A stretch of DNA of 64,000 nt from Saccharothrix deserti (GTDB taxonomy: Bacteria; Actinomycetota; Actinomycetes; Mycobacteriales; Pseudonocardiaceae): positions 368,842 to 432,841 of the forward strand of contig NZ_ML775960.1 of the NCBI RefSeq assembly GCF_009769385.1, in the 5' to 3' direction. Each line of letters opens with the position of its first letter. Position 1 is the first letter of the stretch. Position numbers and translations under genes: made by a program. Positions 1-36,042 of the stretch are shown here, one piece after another. The notes beneath the pieces were generated by a model. The model did not search any database, was not told the DNA's origin, and saw only the letters and a program-made list of their open reading frames with translations.

Positions 1-1152
1 CAGCACCAGCAACGCGTCCAGGATCTCGTGCACGACCCGGTCGGTGACCAGCATGGTCGTCAGCCAGGCGTGCGCGGCCAGGTCGAACAGCGAGCCGCCG
101 TGCGCCGGAATCCGGAGCTCCGGGTGTTCGCAGCCGCCGTGGATGGCGCTGAACGTCGCCAGCAGCCGGAACCAGGCGGCTTCGCGCCGGTCGATGACCT
201 CCTCGCCGAGCCGGTCACGATCCTCGGTCAGCTGCTGGTACAGCTCGGTGACGGCATACCCGCCCGCGTACACCGGGTCCTTGACGGGCAGCAGCTCGCG
301 CTGCTCGGCGTAGAGCAGGAACACCAGGCGCATCAACGTGGTCAGGGCGGCCCGGTAGATCTCCCGCTCCTCCACGTCGGCCAGCAGCGCGCCGCCCGCC
401 TCGCGGTCGAGCCGGGCGAACTCGCCGACCAGCAGTTCCACCGCCTGCCGAACCTGGTTGCCCAACGTGTCGGTGACCTGGGACTGCTCGTCCTCGGTGC
501 GGGCGAACAACGCGGCCAGCGTGTCCGGCCGGTCCGAGGGCGCGAGCACGCGTTGGGCCGACAACAGGGACGCGAAGGCGCGCAGCAGCAGCGGCTCCTC
601 CGACCACAGGTCGGCGTCGAACACGGCCGTGCTCGTCGGGCCGCCGGGGCGGGCGTGCACCAGAGTCCAGAAACGGCCGTCGGTGAGCAGCGCCAGCGGC
701 GTGCCGGTGTCACGACACACCCGCGCGGCCAGCTCGGGCTCGACCTCGTGCCGGTAGACGTGCAGCTTCGCCGCCCGGCCGCCGGGTGCCTGCGGATCGG
801 GGCCGATCGCCACCTGGTCGGGCTTGACCGGGCCTTCGATCTCGAACTCGGCCAACGCGGTGTCGCGCAGCACGGACGGCGGGTAGCGCAGCAGGTCACC
901 GAACACGAAGTCCTGCCACAGCACGCGCAGTCGGTCGGGGTCGGCGTCGAACTCGGCCCACGCCTGCCGCACCCGTTCCCGCAGCGGCTGGGGCAACGCC
1001 TCGACGCCGTTCGGGAACGCGGAGGTGAGCACGGGCAGGCCGATGAACGGGCCGTCCGGGCGCAGCAGCGCGATCCACTCGGCGTGCTGCTCCACCGCGC
1101 TGGGCGCCTTGGGACGTCGCGTCCCGGGCGACTTGGCCGACGCGGCGGTCAT
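1..1152 (-). CDS. drmMI: DISARM adenine methyltransferase DrmMI, N-terminal part (cut by left edge)
   Basis: The 384 visible codons (starting MTAASAKSPGTRRP) read without a stop to base 1, so the C-terminal part is missing. In class 1 DISARM, drmMI follows drmD and encodes an Eco57I/PglX-type N6-adenine DNA methylase that marks host DNA as self. Only the domain ahead of the catalytic core is visible; the SAM-binding and NPPY motifs would lie off the edge. The visible part looks like the N-terminal region of such large methylases, with segments such as FIGLPVLTSAFPNG and LMRLVFLLYAEQRELLP. The ATG overlaps the drmD stop as ATGA (1149-1152), so the two are translationally coupled. The assignment rests mainly on its drmD neighbour and N-terminal resemblance. 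A methylase of another defence system is the alternative. Confidence 0.72.
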   Translation of the reverse strand, partial: MTAASAKSPGTRRPKAPSAVEQHAEWIALLRPDGPFIGLPVLTSAFPNGVEALPQPLRERVRQAWAEFDADPDRLRVLWQDFVFGDLLRYPPSVLRDTALAEFEIEGPVKPDQVAIGPDPQAPGGRAAKLHVYRHEVEPELAARVCRDTGTPLALLTDGRFWTLVHARPGGPTSTAVFDADLWSEEPLLLRAFASLLSAQRVLAPSDRPDTLAALFARTEDEQSQVTDTLGNQVRQAVELLVGEFARLDREAGGALLADVEEREIYRAALTTLMRLVFLLYAEQRELLPVKDPVYAGGYAVTELYQQLTEDRDRLGEEVIDRREAAWFRLLATFSAIHGGCEHPELRIPAHGGSLFDLAAHAWLTTMLVTDRVVHEILDALLVL

Positions 1153-4100
1153 CGGGTTGCTCCTCGTGCGATCGCGGACGGCACCAGCAGCGTCACGGCC
1201 ACCGGGAACCACCGGGTCGTGGGGTCGGCGTAGCGGCGGCGCAACGCCTTCTCCTCCCGCTCCCGCTGTTCGGGGATCGCCTCCAGCCGGGCCCGCAGCG
1301 CATCGCGGTCGGCGTTGAGCTGGTCGCGCTCGTCGATCTCGAACAGGCTCGGCTGCCACACGTCCTGGTCGTCCAGCGCGATCTCGATGGACTTCGCCAG
1401 TTCCTCCAGCACCTTGCCGATGCCCTCGACCTCCTCGTCGCACCGGTCGCGCAGCATCGCCCGCATACTGCGCAGCCGCTGGTCGGCGCGGGTGTTCAGG
1501 GCCTTGGCCAGCGGGTCGGACAGCGTCGGCCACAGCTCGGTGAACTTGTCGCGCATGGCGTCGGCCGGCTCCTCCGACGCGGCGGCCAGCAGGGCGTCCA
1601 CCTCGTCGACCTTGCGGATGAGCGAGAACTTGCCCTGCTCGATCAGACCACCCGCGGACACGATCTCCTCGTGGAGTCGACTGCCGTCCGCACCCGTGAC
1701 GACGACGCGGCCGTGCGCGATCACCGCGGGCACGCGCAACGTGTCACCGCGGACGACCCGCGTGGTGATGCGGCGCAGCTTCCCGCCCGCACCGGCCTTC
1801 GTCTGCGCCCACAGCTCGGCGCGCAGCAGCCTCATGCACATCTGCACCAGCCGGTGCCCCAAGTGCAGCAGCACCACGTCGGTGCGTCCGCCGACAGCCT
1901 CCTGGTCGAAGCTGACCGGCCGCTCCTCACCGGTGACCGGGTGGCGCAGGCCCTCGTTGCGGGCCGAAGCCCAGGCGCCCGGCAACTCGGGCAGCCGGAA
2001 CACCTCGCCGCCGAACCCCGGCGGCGGTGTCGCGGGCCGCAGGTCCTGGCGGTGTGCCAGCCGCAGGGCGGTGCTCACCACCCGGCGCACCGTCTCCGGG
2101 TTCAGGTTGAGCTTGGCACGGCTGGAGCGCAGCTCCTCGGTCAGCCGTTCCAGGTCACGGGCGAGGTCGCGCTCCACCTTCAGGCGTGCGCGGCCGGAGC
2201 GTTGGACGATCTCCCGGTCCGCGGTCTGCCAGTCACCGCGCTCACCGACCATCTTCTGCTCGATCTGCGCGGCGATCACCTCACCCGCGCTGCCGAGGTC
2301 CTCGCGGATCTGGTGCACCTTGCGGACGGCGACCTCCAGGAAGGCCAACTCGTCCTCCAGCGATCCCTCGGCGAAGTCCTCCTTCTCCCAGCCCTTCGGC
2401 ACGAAGTGGTGCACCTTCACCACCTCCGCGGGCTGCCCGTGCCGGTCGACGCGACCGTTGCGCTGCTCCAGCCGGTTCGGGTTCCACGGGATCTCCCAGT
2501 GCAGCACGCGGTGGCAGTGGCGTTGCAGGTTGATGCCCTCGCTGGCCGCGTCCGTCGCCAGCAGGATGCGCATCTCGTCCAGCCGCGGATCCTCGGTGAA
2601 GACGTTCTTGATGCGTTCCCGCTCGTCGACGTCCTGGCCGCCGTAGAGCAGGGCGATCTTCTCCGGCCGGTAGCCCGCGTTCAGCAGCCGCTCGTGCAGC
2701 CAGCGCTGGGTGTCCCGGTACTCGGTGAAAATGATGATCCGCTCGTCGTCCCGGTCCACGATCGGCCGGAGGTGCGCCAGCAGCGCGGCGACCTTGCGGT
2801 CCGCGCGGTTCTGCGCGTCCCGTGCCCAGTCGCGCAGCTGCTCCAGCAGCGCCTTCTCCCGAGCCGACAACGGGGGTGCGCCGCGGCGGGCCACGCGCAG
2901 GGCGTCCGCCTCGGCTTCCCGGTAGCGGCTGCTGTCGGCGTCGTCCTCGTCCGCGGCCTCGGTGACCCGGTCGATCAACACGGGCAACGCGTGTGCGAGA
3001 GGTCGGCCGTCGGTGTCGCGTTCGCGCTCCGCCATCGTCGTCAGGTGCACGTCGACCGTCTCGGCGAACGCCTTGGGCGAGGAGAACAGCCGGCGCTTGA
3101 GCAGGGTGGTGACGAAGTCCGCGGCCGTCTTGGAGCCGGTGCCGCGTCGGCTCTCGCTGTACTGGCGCAGCAGGTCGTGGGCGTGGCGCTCCTCGGCGGA
3201 GTGATCCACCTCCAGGTAGTCCAGCTCACGGGTGCCGAAGTACGACGAGCCGTCCCACTTCTTCGGCAACTCGCTCTTGAGCCTGCGCACCATCGCCCGC
3301 TTGAGCTGCGCCTCGCTCGGCCTGACGTTGCGCGCGAAACGCTGGTCGTCCAGCAGCTCCAGCAGCGCGGTGAAGGACTCCAGGTATCCGTTGTGCGGAG
3401 TCGCCGACAGGAACAGGCGGTGCTCGCAGTGCGGGGCCAGGGTGCGGACGGCCTTGGTCCGAAGCGAGTCGACCGCGTACCTGCCGCGACCGGACGGCGC
3501 GCACGTGTGCACCTCGTCCACGACGAGCAGGTCGAACTTCCTCGGGTACTCCGGGGTGCTCGGCAGGACCTGGTCGAGCAGGCGCATGGGGCGGGTCCGC
3601 TTGAGCCAGTCGATGCTGACGATGAGCCTCGGGTAGTGCGTCCACGGGTTGGTGTGCGGGCCGCGTGCCCGGCGCAACTGCTTGAGCAGGTCGGAGTCGA
3701 CGATGCGGAAGTCCAGGCCGAACTTGTCCCGCATCTCGTCACGCCACTGCAGGGTCAACCCGGCCGGGCACACGATCAGCATCGTGCGGGCGCGGTGGCG
3801 CAGCGCCAGTTCCTGCATGACCAGACCCGCTTCGATGGTCTTGCCCATGCCGACGTCGTCCGCGATCAGCAAGTTCGTGCGCGGCATCGACAGGGCCCGC
3901 ACCACCGGGTCGAGCTGGTAGTCCTCGATCTGGATGCCCGAGCGGAACGGGGCCTGGAGCGCGGTGGTGTCCGCCGAGGCGATGGCGCCCCAGCGCACCG
4001 CGTCGAGGAAGGCGTCCAGCTCGGCCGGGTCGTCGAAGCCGTGCTCGGGGCCGGGCAGCACGGCCGTCTCGTGGACCACCGCGCCGATCTCCAGCTCCCA

Positions 4101-4298
4101 GACGACCTGGAGCGTCTCCTCCCGGGCGTCGTCCTCGATGCTGACCAGCGTCACGAGGTGCGTCGGCGGGGTGGAGAAGAAGTGCGGGTCGCTGCTCGCG
4201 ATCTCACTGCGCACGACGTCCGACGTGACCCACTGGCGATTACGCACCGTGACGAGCTGTCCCTGAACGGGCACCACCGAAGCTTCGACTGTCGTCAC
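1149..4298 (-). CDS. drmD: DISARM SNF2-like helicase DrmD
   Basis: Large SNF2-family ATPase of 1049 aa, the usual size for DrmD, the helicase that defines class 1 DISARM. The helicase N-lobe carries Walker A DDVGMGKT (residues about 147-154) and the DEAH-box variant VVDEVHT (about 259-265). The C-lobe carries TEYRDTQRWLHERL, then EGINLQRHCHRVLHWEIPW and the arginine-rich motif VI NRLEQRNGRVDRHGQ. A long helical C-terminal region follows. The start is taken at GTG 4298 because GAGGGAG lies 5-6 bases upstream; the frame stays open 11 codons further. It overlaps drmMI by 4 bases. In DISARM it is thought to act on incoming phage DNA with DrmA, DrmB and DrmC, none of which lies in the window. A hairpin separates it from the carbonic anhydrase operon upstream. 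Confidence 0.82.
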   Translation of the reverse strand: MTTVEASVVPVQGQLVTVRNRQWVTSDVVRSEIASSDPHFFSTPPTHLVTLVSIEDDAREETLQVVWELEIGAVVHETAVLPGPEHGFDDPAELDAFLDAVRWGAIASADTTALQAPFRSGIQIEDYQLDPVVRALSMPRTNLLIADDVGMGKTIEAGLVMQELALRHRARTMLIVCPAGLTLQWRDEMRDKFGLDFRIVDSDLLKQLRRARGPHTNPWTHYPRLIVSIDWLKRTRPMRLLDQVLPSTPEYPRKFDLLVVDEVHTCAPSGRGRYAVDSLRTKAVRTLAPHCEHRLFLSATPHNGYLESFTALLELLDDQRFARNVRPSEAQLKRAMVRRLKSELPKKWDGSSYFGTRELDYLEVDHSAEERHAHDLLRQYSESRRGTGSKTAADFVTTLLKRRLFSSPKAFAETVDVHLTTMAERERDTDGRPLAHALPVLIDRVTEAADEDDADSSRYREAEADALRVARRGAPPLSAREKALLEQLRDWARDAQNRADRKVAALLAHLRPIVDRDDERIIIFTEYRDTQRWLHERLLNAGYRPEKIALLYGGQDVDERERIKNVFTEDPRLDEMRILLATDAASEGINLQRHCHRVLHWEIPWNPNRLEQRNGRVDRHGQPAEVVKVHHFVPKGWEKEDFAEGSLEDELAFLEVAVRKVHQIREDLGSAGEVIAAQIEQKMVGERGDWQTADREIVQRSGRARLKVERDLARDLERLTEELRSSRAKLNLNPETVRRVVSTALRLAHRQDLRPATPPPGFGGEVFRLPELPGAWASARNEGLRHPVTGEERPVSFDQEAVGGRTDVVLLHLGHRLVQMCMRLLRAELWAQTKAGAGGKLRRITTRVVRGDTLRVPAVIAHGRVVVTGADGSRLHEEIVSAGGLIEQGKFSLIRKVDEVDALLAAASEEPADAMRDKFTELWPTLSDPLAKALNTRADQRLRSMRAMLRDRCDEEVEGIGKVLEELAKSIEIALDDQDVWQPSLFEIDERDQLNADRDALRARLEAIPEQREREEKALRRRYADPTTRWFPVAVTLLVPSAIARGATR

Positions 4299-4417
4299 GT
4301 CACTCCCTCGATCCGGACGAGCACCGGACAACTTACTCGGCGCTACGGTCCGTGGTCACCGAGATCGGAGGGTGACGACAAGGTGTCGCCACTGCGTGGC
4401 CTTGGTCGACGTGGAGC

Positions 4418-4496: not shown

Positions 4497-5942
4497 TCAG
4501 TCGGCGGACACCGGGTGGATCAGTTCCACGCCGGCGCGCCGCGCGGCCCAGTGGTCGATCGCCTGGCCGCACGCCTGGTCGAGGTGGTGGACGCCGGTCA
4601 GGTCCACCCGGACCCTGCTGTCGGGCAGGGCTTCCAGGGTTTCCAGGAGTCCGGGCAGCTTGAGGAACGTCGCGTTGCCGCGCACCGCCACGTGGTGGTG
4701 GTCCTCGCCGTGCGCGGTCACCGTGACGGTCAGGCGGGACATGTCCCAGGCCGTCTTGACCACCGCCGCCAGCAGGCCGACGAGGGTGCCGGTGAGCAGG
4801 TCCGTCAGCACGATCAGACCGGCGGTGAGCACCAGCACGGCGGCTTCCGCGCGGTCGGCGCGGGCCAGGTCCAGGACTTGCCTGGGCGCCAGGAGTTTCC
4901 AGCCCGCCTGCACGAGCAGCGCGGCCAGGACCGCCAGCGGGACGTACGACAGCACGTCCGGCAGCAGCACCACGAACACCAGCAGCCACGCGCCGTGCAG
5001 CACGCGGGACAGGCGGGTGCGGGCGCCGGCGTCCACATTGGACGCGCTGCGCACGATCACGGCGGTCATCGGCAACGCGCCGAGCACACCGCACACCGTG
5101 TTGCCGACGCCCTGCGCGACGAGTTCCTTGTCGTACCTCGTCCGGGGACCGCTGTGCATCCGGTCCACGGCCGCCGCGCTGAACAGGCTCTCCGCCGACG
5201 CCACCAGGGCGAACGTCAGCATCGCGCCCAGCACACCGGCGTCCAGCAGGGAGAAGTCGACCAGCGACACCACCTCGGTCAGCGGGCCGACCGAGATGCG
5301 CGGCAACGGCAGCAGCACCCCGACCGCGGAGGCGACCACGACGGCCACCAGCATGCCCGGCACCGCGCGCCACGGCGTGCGCTTCCACAGCCACGCCACC
5401 ACCAGCGTCAGCACGCCGACGGCCAGGCCGCTCAAGCCGACCGACGTCGTCACCGCCGCACGGGCGAGGTCGAGCAGCCCGGAGATCTTGTCACCGGTCG
5501 TCGCGGGCTGGTCCTGCCCGGCGAACGGGTAGAGCTGGCCCAGCACGAGCACCAGGCCGATGCCCGCGAGCATGCCCTGGACCACGGCGGGCGAGATGGC
5601 GCGGAACCAGCGGCCCAGCCGCAGCAGGCCCATCGACACCTGGAGCAGGCCCGCCCCGAGGACGATGAGGCCGAGCGCGCCCAGGCCGTGCGCCGCGACG
5701 GTGTCCGCGACCAGCACGGTCAGGCCCGCCGCCGGTCCGCTGACCTGCATGGTGCTGCCGGGCAGCAGGCCGACCACGAGGCCGCCCACCACACCGGTGA
5801 TGATGCCCAGTTCCGCCGGGACGCCGGAGGCCACGGCGATGCCCACGCACAGCGGGAGCGCCACCAGGAACACCACCAGCGACGCGCCGACGTCGGGCCA
5901 GAAGGACGGCCGCCCCGGCGGGGCGGAACGTTCGGTTTTCAT
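4497..5942 (-). CDS. SulP (SLC26) family anion transporter, probable bicarbonate importer
   Basis: Integral membrane transporter of 481 aa. Roughly 10-14 hydrophobic segments fill residues 15-400, beginning with the SulP signature around GIAVASGVPAELGIITG and the proline-rich PGSTMQVSGPAAG motif. A C-terminal STAS-like domain (about 400-475) contains DLTGVHHLDQAC. SulP proteins move sulfate, bicarbonate or dicarboxylates. The beta-carbonic anhydrase gene 37 bases upstream on the same strand points to bicarbonate, as in BicA-type systems; this is inference. The start is ATG 5942 (MKTERSAPP). The frame is open further upstream but that part lacks membrane character. The sulfur operon is 25 kb away, which weakens a sulfate role. 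Confidence 0.85.
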   Translation of the reverse strand: MKTERSAPPGRPSFWPDVGASLVVFLVALPLCVGIAVASGVPAELGIITGVVGGLVVGLLPGSTMQVSGPAAGLTVLVADTVAAHGLGALGLIVLGAGLLQVSMGLLRLGRWFRAISPAVVQGMLAGIGLVLVLGQLYPFAGQDQPATTGDKISGLLDLARAAVTTSVGLSGLAVGVLTLVVAWLWKRTPWRAVPGMLVAVVVASAVGVLLPLPRISVGPLTEVVSLVDFSLLDAGVLGAMLTFALVASAESLFSAAAVDRMHSGPRTRYDKELVAQGVGNTVCGVLGALPMTAVIVRSASNVDAGARTRLSRVLHGAWLLVFVVLLPDVLSYVPLAVLAALLVQAGWKLLAPRQVLDLARADRAEAAVLVLTAGLIVLTDLLTGTLVGLLAAVVKTAWDMSRLTVTVTAHGEDHHHVAVRGNATFLKLPGLLETLEALPDSRVRVDLTGVHHLDQACGQAIDHWAARRAGVELIHPVSAD

Positions 5943-5979
5943 GCTCACTCGATGACTCCGCGGAAGTCGGGGCAGCCGC

Positions 5980-6570
5980 TCACAGCGGCTGGAACAGGTC
6001 CGAGCGGTGGGCGAAGACCTCACCGGACTCGATGTCGTAGAACCACCCGTGCACGCGCAGGTCGCCGGATTCGACGCGCTCCCGCACGAACGGGTAGTCG
6101 CCCAGCTCGTCGAGCTGGGCGAGGACGTGCTGTTGGCCCTCCGCGCGCAGCGCCTCGTCCGGCCGCGCGGTGCCCGATCGGAACCGGGCGTGCGAGGCGA
6201 GCCAGCGCCGCATGTTGGGCAGGTGGTCGAGCGCGGGCCGGCCCGCGTGGAGGGCCTTGACCGCGCCGCAGTGCGAGTGCCCGCACACCACGATCTCGGT
6301 GACGCCCAGCTGCACGACCGCGAACTCGATGGTCGCGATCTCGCTGGACGCGGACTCGGGGTGGTAGGCGGGGATGACGTTGCCCGCCGTGCGCAGTTCG
6401 AACAGGCTGCCCGGCTCGGCGCCGGTGATGTCGGCGGTCACGATGCGTGAGTCTGCGCAGGTGATGAACAGTGCGGTCGGTGATTGGCCGGCGGCGAGCC
6501 TGCGCCCCGTTTCGGGGGATCTGCGCAGCGAATGCGTGCGGGCGTGCTGGACCAGTTGACGGAATTCCAT
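5980..6570 (-). CDS. beta-class carbonic anhydrase
   Basis: Cytoplasmic zinc enzyme interconverting CO2 and bicarbonate, 196 aa, normal for the beta class. The zinc ligands are all present: Cys38 and Asp40 in CADSR, His98 and Cys101 in CGHSHCGAVK, with the RTAGN loop at 60-64. The start is ATG 6570 (MEFRQLVQH), preceded by GGGGA at a good distance; the open frame continues 86 codons upstream but is arginine/proline-rich and not protein-like. It is followed by a SulP transporter in the same direction, so the two likely form a bicarbonate uptake and hydration unit. A small secreted protein gene lies just upstream on the same strand and may be co-transcribed. Confidence 0.93.
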   Translation of the reverse strand: MEFRQLVQHARTHSLRRSPETGRRLAAGQSPTALFITCADSRIVTADITGAEPGSLFELRTAGNVIPAYHPESASSEIATIEFAVVQLGVTEIVVCGHSHCGAVKALHAGRPALDHLPNMRRWLASHARFRSGTARPDEALRAEGQQHVLAQLDELGDYPFVRERVESGDLRVHGWFYDIESGEVFAHRSDLFQPL

Positions 6571-6629
6571 CGGATTTTCCCCACTCGTCGGTGGTCGGAC
6601 GATGCGATCGACTGGCGGTGGGGCGCCGA

Positions 6630-6971
6630 TCAGTGCCGGAACACCTGTAAGGCCGATGGGGTCGACCAGGTGCGGAGGTGTTCCTGCCGTCCTCGTCCGG
6701 TGGTCGGGGCGACGCACGCCGCGGCGTCGCGGCGCTTCGTGCCGACGACCTGGCGCGAGGCGTTCTCGGCGGGTCTGGCCGGCGACGATCGGGTGGACCA
6801 AGATCGCGGCTCGGGACCGTTGCGGCACTCCCGGACGGGTTCCTCTTCGGACCCGGCCGCCGTCGCGTGCACGGCGGGAGCGACCCGCACGACCTGGGCG
6901 TGACCGAACGGTGATGGGGCCAGCACGGCGAGGAGCGCCAATGCGACCATTGTTACGACAACACGCGCCAT
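6630..6971 (-). CDS. small secreted protein of unknown function
   Basis: A 113-aa open frame opening with a clear export signal: MARVVVTMVALALLAVLAPS followed by a small-residue region, with cleavage likely near residue 25-40. The remainder is polar, rich in Arg, Pro and Ala, with two cysteines, and no family is recognised. The start at ATG 6971 is supported by a GGGGGG ribosome-binding site 5 bases upstream. It sits 59 bases ahead of the carbonic anhydrase gene, so it could be the first gene of that operon. The C-terminal half has unremarkable composition, so the true end of selection is uncertain. Confidence 0.55.
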   Translation of the reverse strand: MARVVVTMVALALLAVLAPSPFGHAQVVRVAPAVHATAAGSEEEPVRECRNGPEPRSWSTRSSPARPAENASRQVVGTKRRDAAACVAPTTGRGRQEHLRTWSTPSALQVFRH

Positions 6972-9833: not shown

Positions 9834-11219
9834 TCAGGCGCCGATCAGGCGGGCCGCCAGGTAGCCCTCGAGCTGGTCCATCGACACGCGCTCCTGCGAC
9901 ATCGTGTCCCGCTCCCGCACCGTCACCGCGTGGTCGGTGAGGGTGTCGAAGTCGACCGTCACGCAGAACGGCGTGCCGATCTCGTCCTGCCTGCGGTAGC
10001 GGCGGCCGATGGCGCCCGCGTCGTCGAACTCGATGTTCCAGTGCTTGCGCAGGGAGTTGGCCAGGTCCTTCGCCTTCGGCGACAGGTCGGCGTTGCGCGA
10101 CAGCGGCAGCACCGCGGCCTTGACCGGGGCCAGCCTGCGGTCCAGGCGCAGCACGACCCGCTTGTCCACGCCGCCCTTGGCGTTCGGCGCCTCGTCCTCG
10201 GTGTAGGCCTCCAGCAGGAACGCCATCATCGGCCGGCCGACACCCGCGGCGGGCTCGATCACGAACGGCCGGTAGCGCGAGTTGGTGGCCTGGTCGAAGT
10301 ACGACAGGTCGACGCCCGAGTGGTTCGAGTGCGTGTTCAGGTCGAAATCGGTGCGGTTCGCGATGCCTTCCAGCTCGCCCCACTCCTGACCGCCGAACTG
10401 GAAGCGGTACTCGATGTCGACGGTGCGCTTCGAGTAGTGCGAGAGCTTTTCCTTCGGGTGCTCGTAATGCCGCAGGTTCTCCTTGGAGATGCCCAGCTCG
10501 GTGTACCAGCGCGAGCGCTCGTCGATCCAGTACTGGTGCCATTCCTCGTCGGTGCCCGGCTCGACGAAGAACTCCATCTCCATCTGCTCGAACTCGCGCG
10601 TGCGGAAGATGAAGTTGCCCGGCGTGATCTCGTTGCGGAAGCTCTTGCCGATCTGGCCGATGCCGAACGGCGGCTTGCGACGCGACGTGGTCTGCACGTT
10701 CAGGAAGTTCGTGAAGATGCCCTGCGCGGTCTCCGGGCGCAGGTAGTGCAGGCCCTCGTCGGTCTCGACCGGGCCGAGGTGGGTCTTGAGCAGGCCGTTG
10801 AACATCTTCGGCTCGGTGTACTGACCGCGGGTGCCGCAGTTCGGGCACGGCACGTCGGAGACGTCACCCTCGGCGACGTCCTTGCCGGTGCGCTCGGCGT
10901 ACTCCTCGACCAACGTGTCCTGCCGGAACCGCTTGTGGCACGAGTTGCACTCGATCAGCGGGTCGACGAACGCCTCGACGTGACCGGACGCCACCCACAC
11001 CTCGCGCGGCAGGATCACCGACGAGTCCAGGCCGACGACGTCCTCACGGCCCCGCACCATGTAGTTCCACCACTGGCGCTTGATGTTGTCCTTCAGCTCG
11101 ACACCGAGCGGACCGTAGTCCCAGGCCGACCTTGTGCCGCCGTAGATCTCGCCGCACGGGTACACGAACCCGCGACGCTTGCACAGGCTGACGACGGTCT
11201 CGATGCGATCGGCTGCCAC
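9834..11219 (-). CDS. glyS: glycyl-tRNA synthetase
   Basis: Class II aminoacyl-tRNA synthetase of the dimeric bacterial/eukaryotic type, charging tRNA-Gly. The 461-aa length fits actinobacterial GlyRS. Signatures are [15 protein letters not shown] near the N-terminus, [11 protein letters not shown], the motif 2 region [20 protein letters not shown], and the anticodon-binding domain in the last 100 residues. Two cysteine pairs (CNSC and CPNC) suggest a zinc knuckle in the insertion. GTG 11219 is chosen because GGAG lies five bases upstream; an in-frame GTG at 11225 would add two residues. It is a single housekeeping gene, with the zinc-regulator pair downstream in the same relative order as in mycobacteria. 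Confidence 0.96.
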
Positions 11220-11331
11220 GGACACTCCATCGGGAGATGCAGAAAGGGATGGTAAACGGGCTTGCCAGGGTAGTCCTTGCGGTCGGGCCGCCATCGGGCG
11301 ACCACGGCACACCTGTGCTTACGCTGCCGGG

Positions 11332-34698: not shown

Positions 34699-36042
34699 AT
34701 GAGCGACCTGTTGAGGCTGGCGACGGCGGGCAGCGTGGACGACGGCAAGTCCACGCTGGTCGGCAGGTTGCTGTACGACACCAAGTCGGTGCTGGCCGAC
34801 ACGCTCGACGCGGTGCACCGCGCCAGCGCCGACCGCGGCCTGACCACCCCCGACCTGTCGCTGCTGGTGGACGGCCTGCGCTCGGAACGCGAGCAGGGCA
34901 TCACCATCGACGTGGCCTACCGCTACTTCGCCACGCCGAAGCGCTCGTTCGTGCTGGCCGACACCCCCGGCCACGTGCAGTACACCCGCAACACGGTGAC
35001 CGGCGCGTCCACCGCGCAGCTCGGCGTGCTGCTGGTGGACGCGCGCAAGGGCGTCATCGAGCAGACCCGGCGGCACGCGGCCGTGCTCGCGCTGCTGGGC
35101 GTGCCGCGCCTGGTGCTGGCGGTCAACAAGATCGACCTGGTCGACTTCGACGAGGTGACGTTCTCCCGCATCGCCAAGGAGTTCACCGCGCACGCCACCG
35201 CCCTCGGGTACGCGGAGGACGCCGTGGTGCAGATCCCGGTGTCCGCGCTGGCCGGTGACAACGTGGTCGAGCGCTCCGAGCGGACGCCCTGGTACGAGGG
35301 CCCGACGCTGCTGGAGCACCTGGAGACGGTGCCGGTCGAGCCGGACCCGCACGACGCGCCGTTCCGGTTCCCGGTGCAGTACGTGATCCGCCCGCGCACC
35401 GCCGAGCACCCGGACTACCGCGGTTACGCGGGCCAGGTCGCGGCGGGCACGGTGCGGGTCGGCGACGAGATCGCCGTGCTGCCCGGCGGGCTGCGCTCCA
35501 CCGTGACCGGTATCGACACCGCGGACGGCCCGCTGCAGGAGGCCGCGGCGGGTCAGTCGGTGACCCTGCTGCTGGCGAACGACGTGGACATCTCGCGGGG
35601 CGACCTGATCGCCGCCGCGGCCGTGCCGCCGAAGGTGACCGACGAGTTCGACGCGACCGTGTGCTGGCTGTCGGACAAGGCGTTGACGCCCGGCGCCCGC
35701 GTCCTGGTCAAGCACGGCACGCGGACCGTGCAGGCGATCGTCACCGAGCTGCGCACCCGGTTCGACGAGCAGAAGCTCGGCAGCACCGACGCGCCGGAAT
35801 CGCTGACGCTCAACGAGATCGGTCAGGTCTCGCTGCGCACCGCCGAACCGATCCCGGTCGACGACTACACGCGGAGCCGCCGCACGGGCGCGTTCCTGGT
35901 CATCGACGCCGCCGACGGCAGCACGCTGGCCGCCGGGCTCGTGGGTGCTCCGCTGCCGGAACTGGACGACGTGGAGAGCTGTACCGACGGCGGCGACGCC
36001 GCCGAGCCGGACAGCCACGCCCTCGTCTCCCCCGGTCCCTGA
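34699..36042 (+). CDS. cysN: sulfate adenylyltransferase subunit 1 (GTPase)
   Basis: GTPase subunit of ATP sulfurylase, 447 aa. The EF-Tu-like G domain has GSVDDGKST (11-19), DTPGHVQYTRN (G3) and NKID (G4). Beta-barrel domains follow (RGYAGQVAAGTVRVGDEI and ALTPGARVLVKHGTRTV). Many mycobacterial homologues are fused to the APS kinase CysC; here the protein ends without it, with a short acidic tail. ATG 34699 follows the cysD stop with no gap. Sulfate activation here therefore feeds APS directly to CysH. Confidence 0.96.
   Translation: MSDLLRLATAGSVDDGKSTLVGRLLYDTKSVLADTLDAVHRASADRGLTTPDLSLLVDGLRSEREQGITIDVAYRYFATPKRSFVLADTPGHVQYTRNTVTGASTAQLGVLLVDARKGVIEQTRRHAAVLALLGVPRLVLAVNKIDLVDFDEVTFSRIAKEFTAHATALGYAEDAVVQIPVSALAGDNVVERSERTPWYEGPTLLEHLETVPVEPDPHDAPFRFPVQYVIRPRTAEHPDYRGYAGQVAAGTVRVGDEIAVLPGGLRSTVTGIDTADGPLQEAAAGQSVTLLLANDVDISRGDLIAAAAVPPKVTDEFDATVCWLSDKALTPGARVLVKHGTRTVQAIVTELRTRFDEQKLGSTDAPESLTLNEIGQVSLRTAEPIPVDDYTRSRRTGAFLVIDAADGSTLAAGLVGAPLPELDDVESCTDGGDAAEPDSHALVSPGP

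Follow-up and report, generated by a model that had tools for sequence, protein, structure and literature searches.

A 64,000-nucleotide stretch of the Saccharothrix deserti genome (the window; bases 368842-432841 of contig 4, hereafter C4, in a 10.8 Mb assembly of 162 contigs) was analyzed together with the class 1 DISARM defence island that crosses its left edge and with related loci in other genomes. Comparison of these sequences points to a sub-type of class 1 DISARM in which the target-recognition domain (TRD) of the adenine methylase DrmMI would be switched in relatives of the window locus, with that locus as a complete two-methylase counterpart; the probability of this reading as a whole was put at roughly 0.8. 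In its full form, held to be somewhat less probable, the proposal is that a sub-type of class 1 DISARM found across many actinobacterial genera rewrites its own self-mark. A dedicated large serine recombinase likely shuffles DrmMI TRD modules between the expressed copy and a silent one in inverted orientation, acting at no more than four conserved DNA sites (I, III, II and IV), giving combinatorial target switching, in many loci at the base read by the equivalent of MmeI E806/R808, and an occasional OFF state, with the window's genus holding a fixed, duplicated counterpart.

Recombinase-bearing relatives of the DISARM locus

Genome searches were scored on the best two (DrmMI) or best four (recombinase) candidates per genome. 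DrmMI was found at 1e-60 in 41 of 390 genomes of the family. In G157, G250 (locus L069) and G151, an opposite-strand piece matching only the C-terminal part of DrmMI lay directly after drmMI (interrupted in G151), and the order read drmD, drmMI, an inverted TRD-only frame (~400-450 aa), a frame of 440-456 aa and drmA; drmB was read beyond drmA in the two whose stretch extends there. Pfam identified the 440-456-aa frame as a large serine recombinase (Resolvase, 6.5e-33; Recombinase, 2.2e-9; both domains in the two frames scanned), to which solved structures of integrases and invertases are related. The one TRD-only frame scanned, that of G157, matched Pfam MmeI_TRD (2.9e-7). The recombinase was found at 1e-60 in 4/390 genomes of the family, each of which also belongs to the 41 with DrmMI. 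In a sample of the class (394 genomes), DrmMI was found in 31 at 1e-50 and the recombinase in 5 at 1e-60, and the 3 strong recombinase matches (77-78% identity) were all in DrmMI genomes. Opposite-strand DrmMI pieces on one contig were seen in this sample in G742, G714 and the window's genome.

A pattern scan then covered 84,980 species, each represented by a single genome; its counts are a lower bound set by the patterns used. It returned 29 loci, 28 with relatives of the recombinase at 51-81% identity (all of which we take to be actinobacterial) and one with an unrelated protein (23%). DISARM genes stood beside the recombinase in 26 of the 28. Plasmids were tried as a source of strain variation at the same locus and set aside: at 1e-30 none of 72,556 plasmid records matched the recombinase, and DrmMI matched 103 records, the best place of each below 60% identity.

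Architecture of the inverted TRD cassette

Upstream sequence was sufficient at 16 loci, including G157 and G151, and all 16 showed one arrangement, in which a TRD encoded on the drmMI strand is followed by an inverted TRD and finally by the recombinase. The inverted TRD was headless in every case (the methylase part being absent), its cargo came from the same gene, its silent frame reached a TRD-like C-terminus, and the stop codons of the facing TRDs lay 8-129 bp apart. The entire order drmD, drmMI, TRD, inverted TRD, recombinase, drmA, drmB was legible in 12/16 (with a partial drmD in L085) and was cut by the end of the stretch or contig in G151, L087, L088 and L091. At the 12 other loci the contig ended first, with an inverted TRD piece at the edge in 8. 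The gap between recombinase and drmA was <500 bp in 19 of 25 loci and 0.9-2.4 kb in six.

Irregularities were recorded at several loci: runs of N in L085, ~5.7 kb interrupting the recombinase match of L088, a contig end within that of L091, and a drmA in two pieces in L084. An apparent insertion sequence in G151 (L044:9784-11226; 29-bp inverted ends at 97% and a 393-aa transposase-like frame, by eye) interrupts drmMI upstream of the TRD, and the silent TRD and recombinase frames there are open.

Conserved sites and module-wise exchange

Silent frames started at or near site I (ATSLLQ), site III (AQEWIAAD) or site II (VLVIARVSK); site IV (QAVLSS) was a fourth block conserved as DNA. Where repeats were reported by blastn, their outer ends were abrupt, with unrelated flanks followed by identity or near-identity in most loci and a weaker transition in L075 and L084. 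Codon choice was scanned at the amino-acid-conserved columns of DrmMI, DrmA and DrmD against the loci's own codon usage (2897 scan windows). Seven separate scan windows exceeded the 99th percentile (0.76), three of them being sites IV (1.17), III (0.96) and I (0.91). Single codons, which were chosen post hoc as the scan was not, were counted at the sites, elsewhere in the TRD and in DrmMI without this recombinase: TCA at site IV in 25/30, 80/646 and 2/22; CAA at site III in 19/22, 87/291 and 1/6; and ATT in 20/26, 82/466 and 5/19. The controls comprised 26 tracks from 25 DrmMI loci, the window's own included, and omitted the recombinase loci L030 and L032, the partial locus L016, and L038 and L040, which have internal stops. 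One exact crossover word was searched for and was present only in the two Lentzea loci.

Identity between the expressed (E) and silent (S) TRD was measured module by module on codon alignments, which superseded blastn; the repeat search had seen inverted repeats in G157, G250 and G151, and blastn self-comparison reported none in 6/16 loci. E/S identity in G157 was 94% (I-III), 59% (III-II), 98% (II-IV) and 69% (IV to the end); the corresponding modules of G151 gave 92, 59, 66 and 73%, and L086 reached 100% over II-IV and then fell to 67%. Identity shifts at the sites, and TRD pieces have therefore been exchanged separately. Two hybrid joints are what a single enzyme acting on several sites would be expected to produce: the head of the L086 silent copy reads as the left half of site III joined to the right half of site II, and the expressed copy of L084 carries an out-of-frame joint between the left half of site I and the right half of site II. 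The L084 joint, from a metagenome assembly, may represent an OFF state or reflect an assembly error and was left as weak.

Exchange between species was scored for each locus pair and TRD module from four identities (EE, SS, ES and SE) in 439 comparisons, which are not independent of one another. Both cross-position identities exceeded both same-position identities in 80/439 (swapped), and 71/439 were same-state. Clear swaps (EE, SS, ES, SE) were L079/L091 (56, 54, 81, 75), L072/L086 (60, 63, 76, 74) and module III-II of G151/G157 (56, 60, 70, 73); clear same-state pairs were L084/L094 (72, 70, 53, 58), L069/L086 (72, 71, 60, 59) and G151/L069 (75, 75, 64, 58). Across species, TRD lineages occur about equally in E and S, as would be expected of lineages that trade positions.

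Inversion between matching sites was carried out in silico at 12 of the 16 loci and left drmMI open with the other TRD in 11/11 testable cases; L079, whose expressed TRD mismatched the site pattern, stood outside the test. Contig edges were counted around the recombinase at 26 loci, the two non-DISARM loci being left out, and fell within 500 bp upstream in 12/26 and downstream in 1/26, with 0.48 expected if evenly placed. Two contig ends of Lentzea albidocapillata (G232) match each other inverted (103 bp at 99%), and DrmMI matches on two contigs of G434 both stop at query residue 1072, adjoining site III. Such breaks mark a repeat that the assemblies did not pass and are alone no proof of mixed orientation.

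The mechanism proposed from these features is as follows. The drmMI-drmA slot of the sister systems would serve as a switch made of the inverted headless TRD cassette and the large serine recombinase. Recombination at several conserved DNA sites in the TRD region of drmMI, presumably catalyzed by that recombinase, would swap expressed and silent pieces by inversion. Inversion would occur in living cultures and alter the methylated motif, and by switching the methylation target it would change the mark of self.

Likeness to MmeI and the specificity pair

The DrmMI profile matched MmeI (PDB 5hr4) at 6.5e-19 over stretches 302-429 and 466-825, which include the end of the methylase and the TRD. 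In the MmeI passage of PMC4081073, E806/R808 specifies C as the last base and K806/D808 specifies G. The equivalent pair was located by counting residues by hand on the alignment. In 11/16 loci one TRD carried E.R where the other had R.D or K.D; both TRDs carried R.D or K.D in 5/16, and both carried E.R in 0/16. The contrast has P=0.07 under random pairing, and for this reason a difference between E and S TRDs in the base read by the pair is suggestive only.

The DISARM island at the window edge

The gene for DrmD, an SNF2-type helicase and class 1 DISARM marker, occupies window 1149..4331 (minus strand; 1060 aa from TTG) and matched PADLOC DrmD (E=0, residues 14-1053) and the Pfam domains SNF2-rel_dom and Helicase_C. 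A GTG at 4298, the 12th codon of this frame and the end coordinate in the original prediction, offers an alternative and perhaps the true start. The 5' part of an MmeI/Eco57I-like adenine methylase gene, drmMI-a, fills window 1..1152 (minus strand, ATG at 1152); its start overlaps the drmD stop as ATGA, and its frame leaves the window at the left edge after 384 codons (PADLOC DrmMI 3.4e-109). On the parent contig drmMI-a is complete (C4:366070-369993, minus strand, 1307 aa, PADLOC DrmMI E=0). It is followed by a second full-length gene, drmMI-b (C4:362132-366031, plus strand, 1299 aa, PADLOC DrmMI E=0), and by the helicase gene drmA (C4:358561-362091; PADLOC DrmA E=0), the DUF1998 gene drmB (C4:356720-358627; PADLOC DrmB 6.2e-79, Pfam MZB) and drmC (C4 about 355935-356720; PADLOC DrmC 2.8e-90, Pfam PLDc_2), all three on the minus strand. 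Pfam matches on the island proteins of this adjoining stretch (Eco57I, MmeI_Mtase, MZB and PLDc_2) agreed with PADLOC.

The island order is drmC-drmB-drmA on the minus strand, drmMI-b on the plus strand, and drmMI-a and drmD on the minus strand. With drmA, drmB and drmC present and drmD and drmMI adjoining this core, the window edge lies within a complete class 1 DISARM island. The original prediction had read a complete drmD and a coupled drmMI start at the left edge, as PADLOC, Pfam and the codon check bore out, and had placed the class 1 core beyond that edge on the same strand; drmA, drmB and drmC were all found there by PADLOC, within 15 kb leftwards on the contig. The core lay where predicted, and the inverted second drmMI between drmMI-a and drmA was an unforeseen refinement. 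The locus is ordinary in kind and slightly unusual in layout, having two facing methylases.

The two facing methylases of the window's genus

The two drmMI genes are convergent, tail to tail, with frames 38 bp apart, and drmMI-b and drmA are divergent, their first start codons lying 40 bp apart. Both drmMI frames are open over their full length, and both carry the methylase motifs DPTMGSG and NPPF (by eye). In blocks of 60 codons, the codon-aligned DNA of the two copies was 66-87% identical as far as about column 840; over the TRD and C-terminal part, identity dropped to 48-60%, the last four codons excepted. Both window proteins have R.D at the pair equivalent to MmeI E806/R808, and their TRDs differ at other positions. 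The six inverted arm pairs of drmMI-a and drmMI-b were 72-84% alike, short of near-identical inverted repeats.

DrmMI was found at 1e-30 in 3 of the 25 genomes of the genus, in G019 only over a 120-residue piece. The other full-length case, the congener G004, has two opposite-strand drmMI at the same site with ~7 kb of other genes between them. When the window's genome (G000) was paired with G004, the N-terminal parts were 80% (a/a), 82% (b/b) and 73-75% (a/b) identical, and the TRDs were only 40% (a/a) and 69% (b/b) identical. Because the N-terminal parts pair a/a and b/b above a/b, the drmMI duplication appears to predate the split of the two species, and by the same alignments the copy-a TRD has been replaced. 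DrmMI-a and DrmMI-b would then be two retained methylases with different targets, marking host DNA at two different sequences, and DrmA, DrmB and DrmC with DrmD, which are established for DISARM as attacking DNA without marks, would do the same here.

The window's own drmMI pair was considered as a working inversion switch and rejected: beyond the diverged arms, the longest exact match between the copies was 27 bases, and no recombinase match at E<=1e-60 was obtained in the window's genome (4/29 first-look candidates scored). Pfam likewise gave no recombinase among 8 scanned proteins of the adjoining stretch. An a/b swap was also rejected, the N-terminal parts and TRDs indicating replacement of the copy-a TRD instead. 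The window locus is read as a fixed two-methylase version, with a duplicated and diverged counterpart in the slot that holds the recombinase cassette in relatives.

Other arrangements of drmMI were observed. Same-strand drmMI pairs occur in class 1 DISARM of G105 (L045, adjacent) and G254 (L046, ~8.5 kb apart). The drmMI-drmA slot of G376, G144 and G211 is 1.8-4 kb wide and carries frames, and no inverted repeats >=40 bases were found in the drmMI-drmA region of these three; by eye, the G144 slot (L048:4777-8565) contains two genes that look like a toxin-antitoxin pair of the AbiE type, together with a DUF262-like frame of 775 aa. In G004 (loci L012/L013, G004:C3:324581-331285 and 338531-340576) the cargo between the drmMI copies includes HNH/DUF222, NucA/NucB-like and HTH/DUF5753 proteins, and a UvrD-like helicase follows drmD; these are possible further defence genes. 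Pfam was run on seven neighbouring proteins and gave HNH/DUF222, NucA/NucB-like, HTH/DUF5753, UvrD-like and DUF6194 matches, the last from the window's genome, with no match for two.

If the two window drmMI are independent constitutive methylases, as also proposed here, the inverted TRDs of other species could still be an unrelated archive of duplicated fragments, and it is this second half that rivals a switch. The retention of the window copies as orthologue pairs in two species, the same-strand pairs of G105 and G254 and the lack of a recombinase match in the window's genome fit such an explanation. An archive is nevertheless unlikely for the relatives, in which all 16 readable cassettes are inverted, lack the methylase part and start near a few recurring sites, with the recombinase beside the cassette at DISARM in 26/28.

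Weighing of the proposed switch

Several observations weigh against TRD switching in the relatives. The expressed copy is broken in G151 (by the insertion sequence) and out of frame in L084. A whole module with >=90% E/S identity was found in only 6/16 loci (G151, G157, L069, L072, L085, where just 45 bases were comparable, and L086); the remaining loci had shorter identical runs near the sites, and L075 had none of note. Non-independence reduces what can be drawn from the 439 swap comparisons, and the specificity-pair contrast reached only the P value given above. The codon scan also exceeded its 99th percentile away from the sites, at DrmA 1257 (near the end; 1.09), DrmMI 729 (0.90), DrmD 955 (0.80) and DrmMI 1031 (0.77), and site II scored 0.72, between the 95th and 99th percentiles. 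In the class sample, 2 weaker recombinase matches (46-52%; G545 and G555) fell outside the 31 DrmMI genomes, and two relatives from the pattern scan were not at DISARM: L090 (a partial match with no DISARM gene found) and L093 (51% identity, among other genes). Further copies may have escaped the genome searches, given the number of candidates scored. No inversion within one strain was seen in the data used, which comprised assemblies only, one per species.

Long identical E/S blocks need gene conversion or another process beyond simple inversion. They lend some weight to a second explanation, in which inversion proceeds by RecA-dependent homologous recombination across identical blocks (up to 374 bp at 97% and >100 bp at 100%) and the recombinase gene is incidental. 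Against this, the blocks begin at short stretches of DNA whose codons are conserved across genera, and the recombinase gene is kept at DISARM in 26/28; this route is considered quite improbable. Large serine recombinases are often integrases, and a third explanation, that cassette and recombinase are the remnant of a mobile element whose serine integrase inserted in drmMI and left the inverted repeat as a by-product, draws on the integrases among the nearest solved structures, on L090 and L093 outside DISARM and on the 0.9-2.4 kb between recombinase and drmA in 6/25 loci, but is very improbable against a gap of <500 bp in 19/25, cargo from the same gene's TRD in 16/16 readable loci and E and S lineages that swap places between species.

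Genomic site of the island

The frame named glyS in the original prediction (window 9834-11312, minus strand) had a match in all 25 genomes of the genus. Between 4.3 and 9.8 kb lie genes for a SulP transporter, a carbonic anhydrase, an anthrone-oxygenase-like protein, a cupin/AraC regulator and a fifth protein with a weak SMP-30-like match under the cut-off; PADLOC at 0.001 gave no match on these five. The SulP-family transporter gene overlaps the Pro_CA-type carbonic anhydrase gene (window 4497-6828, minus strand, between DISARM and glyS), and the two are perhaps a bicarbonate transport pair. The island is flanked by an S51 peptidase on one side and glyS on the other. This interval measures 1.6-9.3 kb in 23 genomes of the genus without full DrmMI, 24.2 kb in the window's genome and 36.9 kb in G004, the two with full DrmMI. 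The earlier suggestion of an integration hotspot left of glyS holds weakly by this comparison: DISARM sits at one shared site, and a variety of islands, not seen in the two genomes whose interval was read, may exist in the others. Elsewhere in the window, ARAGORN reported a tRNA-Ala (35409-35496, plus strand, anticodon CGC) of 88 nt, which is unusually long for a tRNA-Ala.

Relation to known systems and implications

Class 1 DISARM reportedly has the order drmD-drmMI-drmA-drmB-drmC, and methylation is believed to be how DISARM distinguishes self from non-self. The window locus shares all five marker genes and an MmeI/Eco57I-type adenine methylase with class 1 DISARM and differs in its two full-length facing drmMI; the relatives differ in carrying an inverted TRD copy and their own recombinase. 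Statements from papers cited here by PMC accession refer to excerpts of those papers. The two methylases of a Serratia DISARM differ in kind, one modifying adenine and the other cytosine, and the ATPase activity of DrmAB is reduced on methylated DNA (PMC9142583). MmeI-family type IIG enzymes (5hr4; PMC4081073) resemble DrmMI in the profile match and the alignable specificity pair, whereas DrmMI is part of DISARM, and the MmeI passage of PMC4081073 has no inverting TRD switch.

Type I restriction-modification systems in which hsdS has an inverted duplicate, in some cases accompanied by a recombinase, have been described (PMC7394358). As excerpted, these systems share with the relatives a silent inverted specificity gene, several possible specificities, inverted repeats before and between TRD parts and, in the examples excerpted, a locus-encoded recombinase. 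The relatives differ from them in being DISARM, in using a single-chain MmeI-like methylase rather than HsdS and in having a large serine recombinase; PsrA of S. pneumoniae is a tyrosine recombinase.

No invertible or phase-variable DISARM was found among the matches listed in the open full-text literature (titles and abstract openings) or in the excerpts of PMC12003011, PMC7365801, PMC12707154 and PMC5903667. In the excerpts of a 2025 preprint on DrmA-family helicases (PMC12458937), the terms 'phase', 'invertible' and 'DrmMI' are absent and the four mentions of recombinases are on other matters. A Cutibacterium acnes DISARM methylome in which a motif was detected at only 24.1% (excerpt of PMC7365801) was considered as proof and rejected, and no link is claimed. 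DISARM with an MmeI-like DrmMI is already known, and the variant with an inverting TRD appears to be new within the open literature covered.

The value of the window locus is as a lead to a DISARM sub-type with an apparent built-in TRD switch, for which several signals in the sequences speak. If such switching is real, a system that changes its target must avoid attacking its own freshly unmethylated chromosome, and phage progeny bearing the old mark would lose their protection. An invertible DISARM would explain the frequent assembly breaks at one place in these loci, and it would be a source of naturally occurring TRD modules and of a serine recombinase whose candidate sites are at hand. The question of self-avoidance would become testable, and DISARM would join the phase-variable epigenetic systems.

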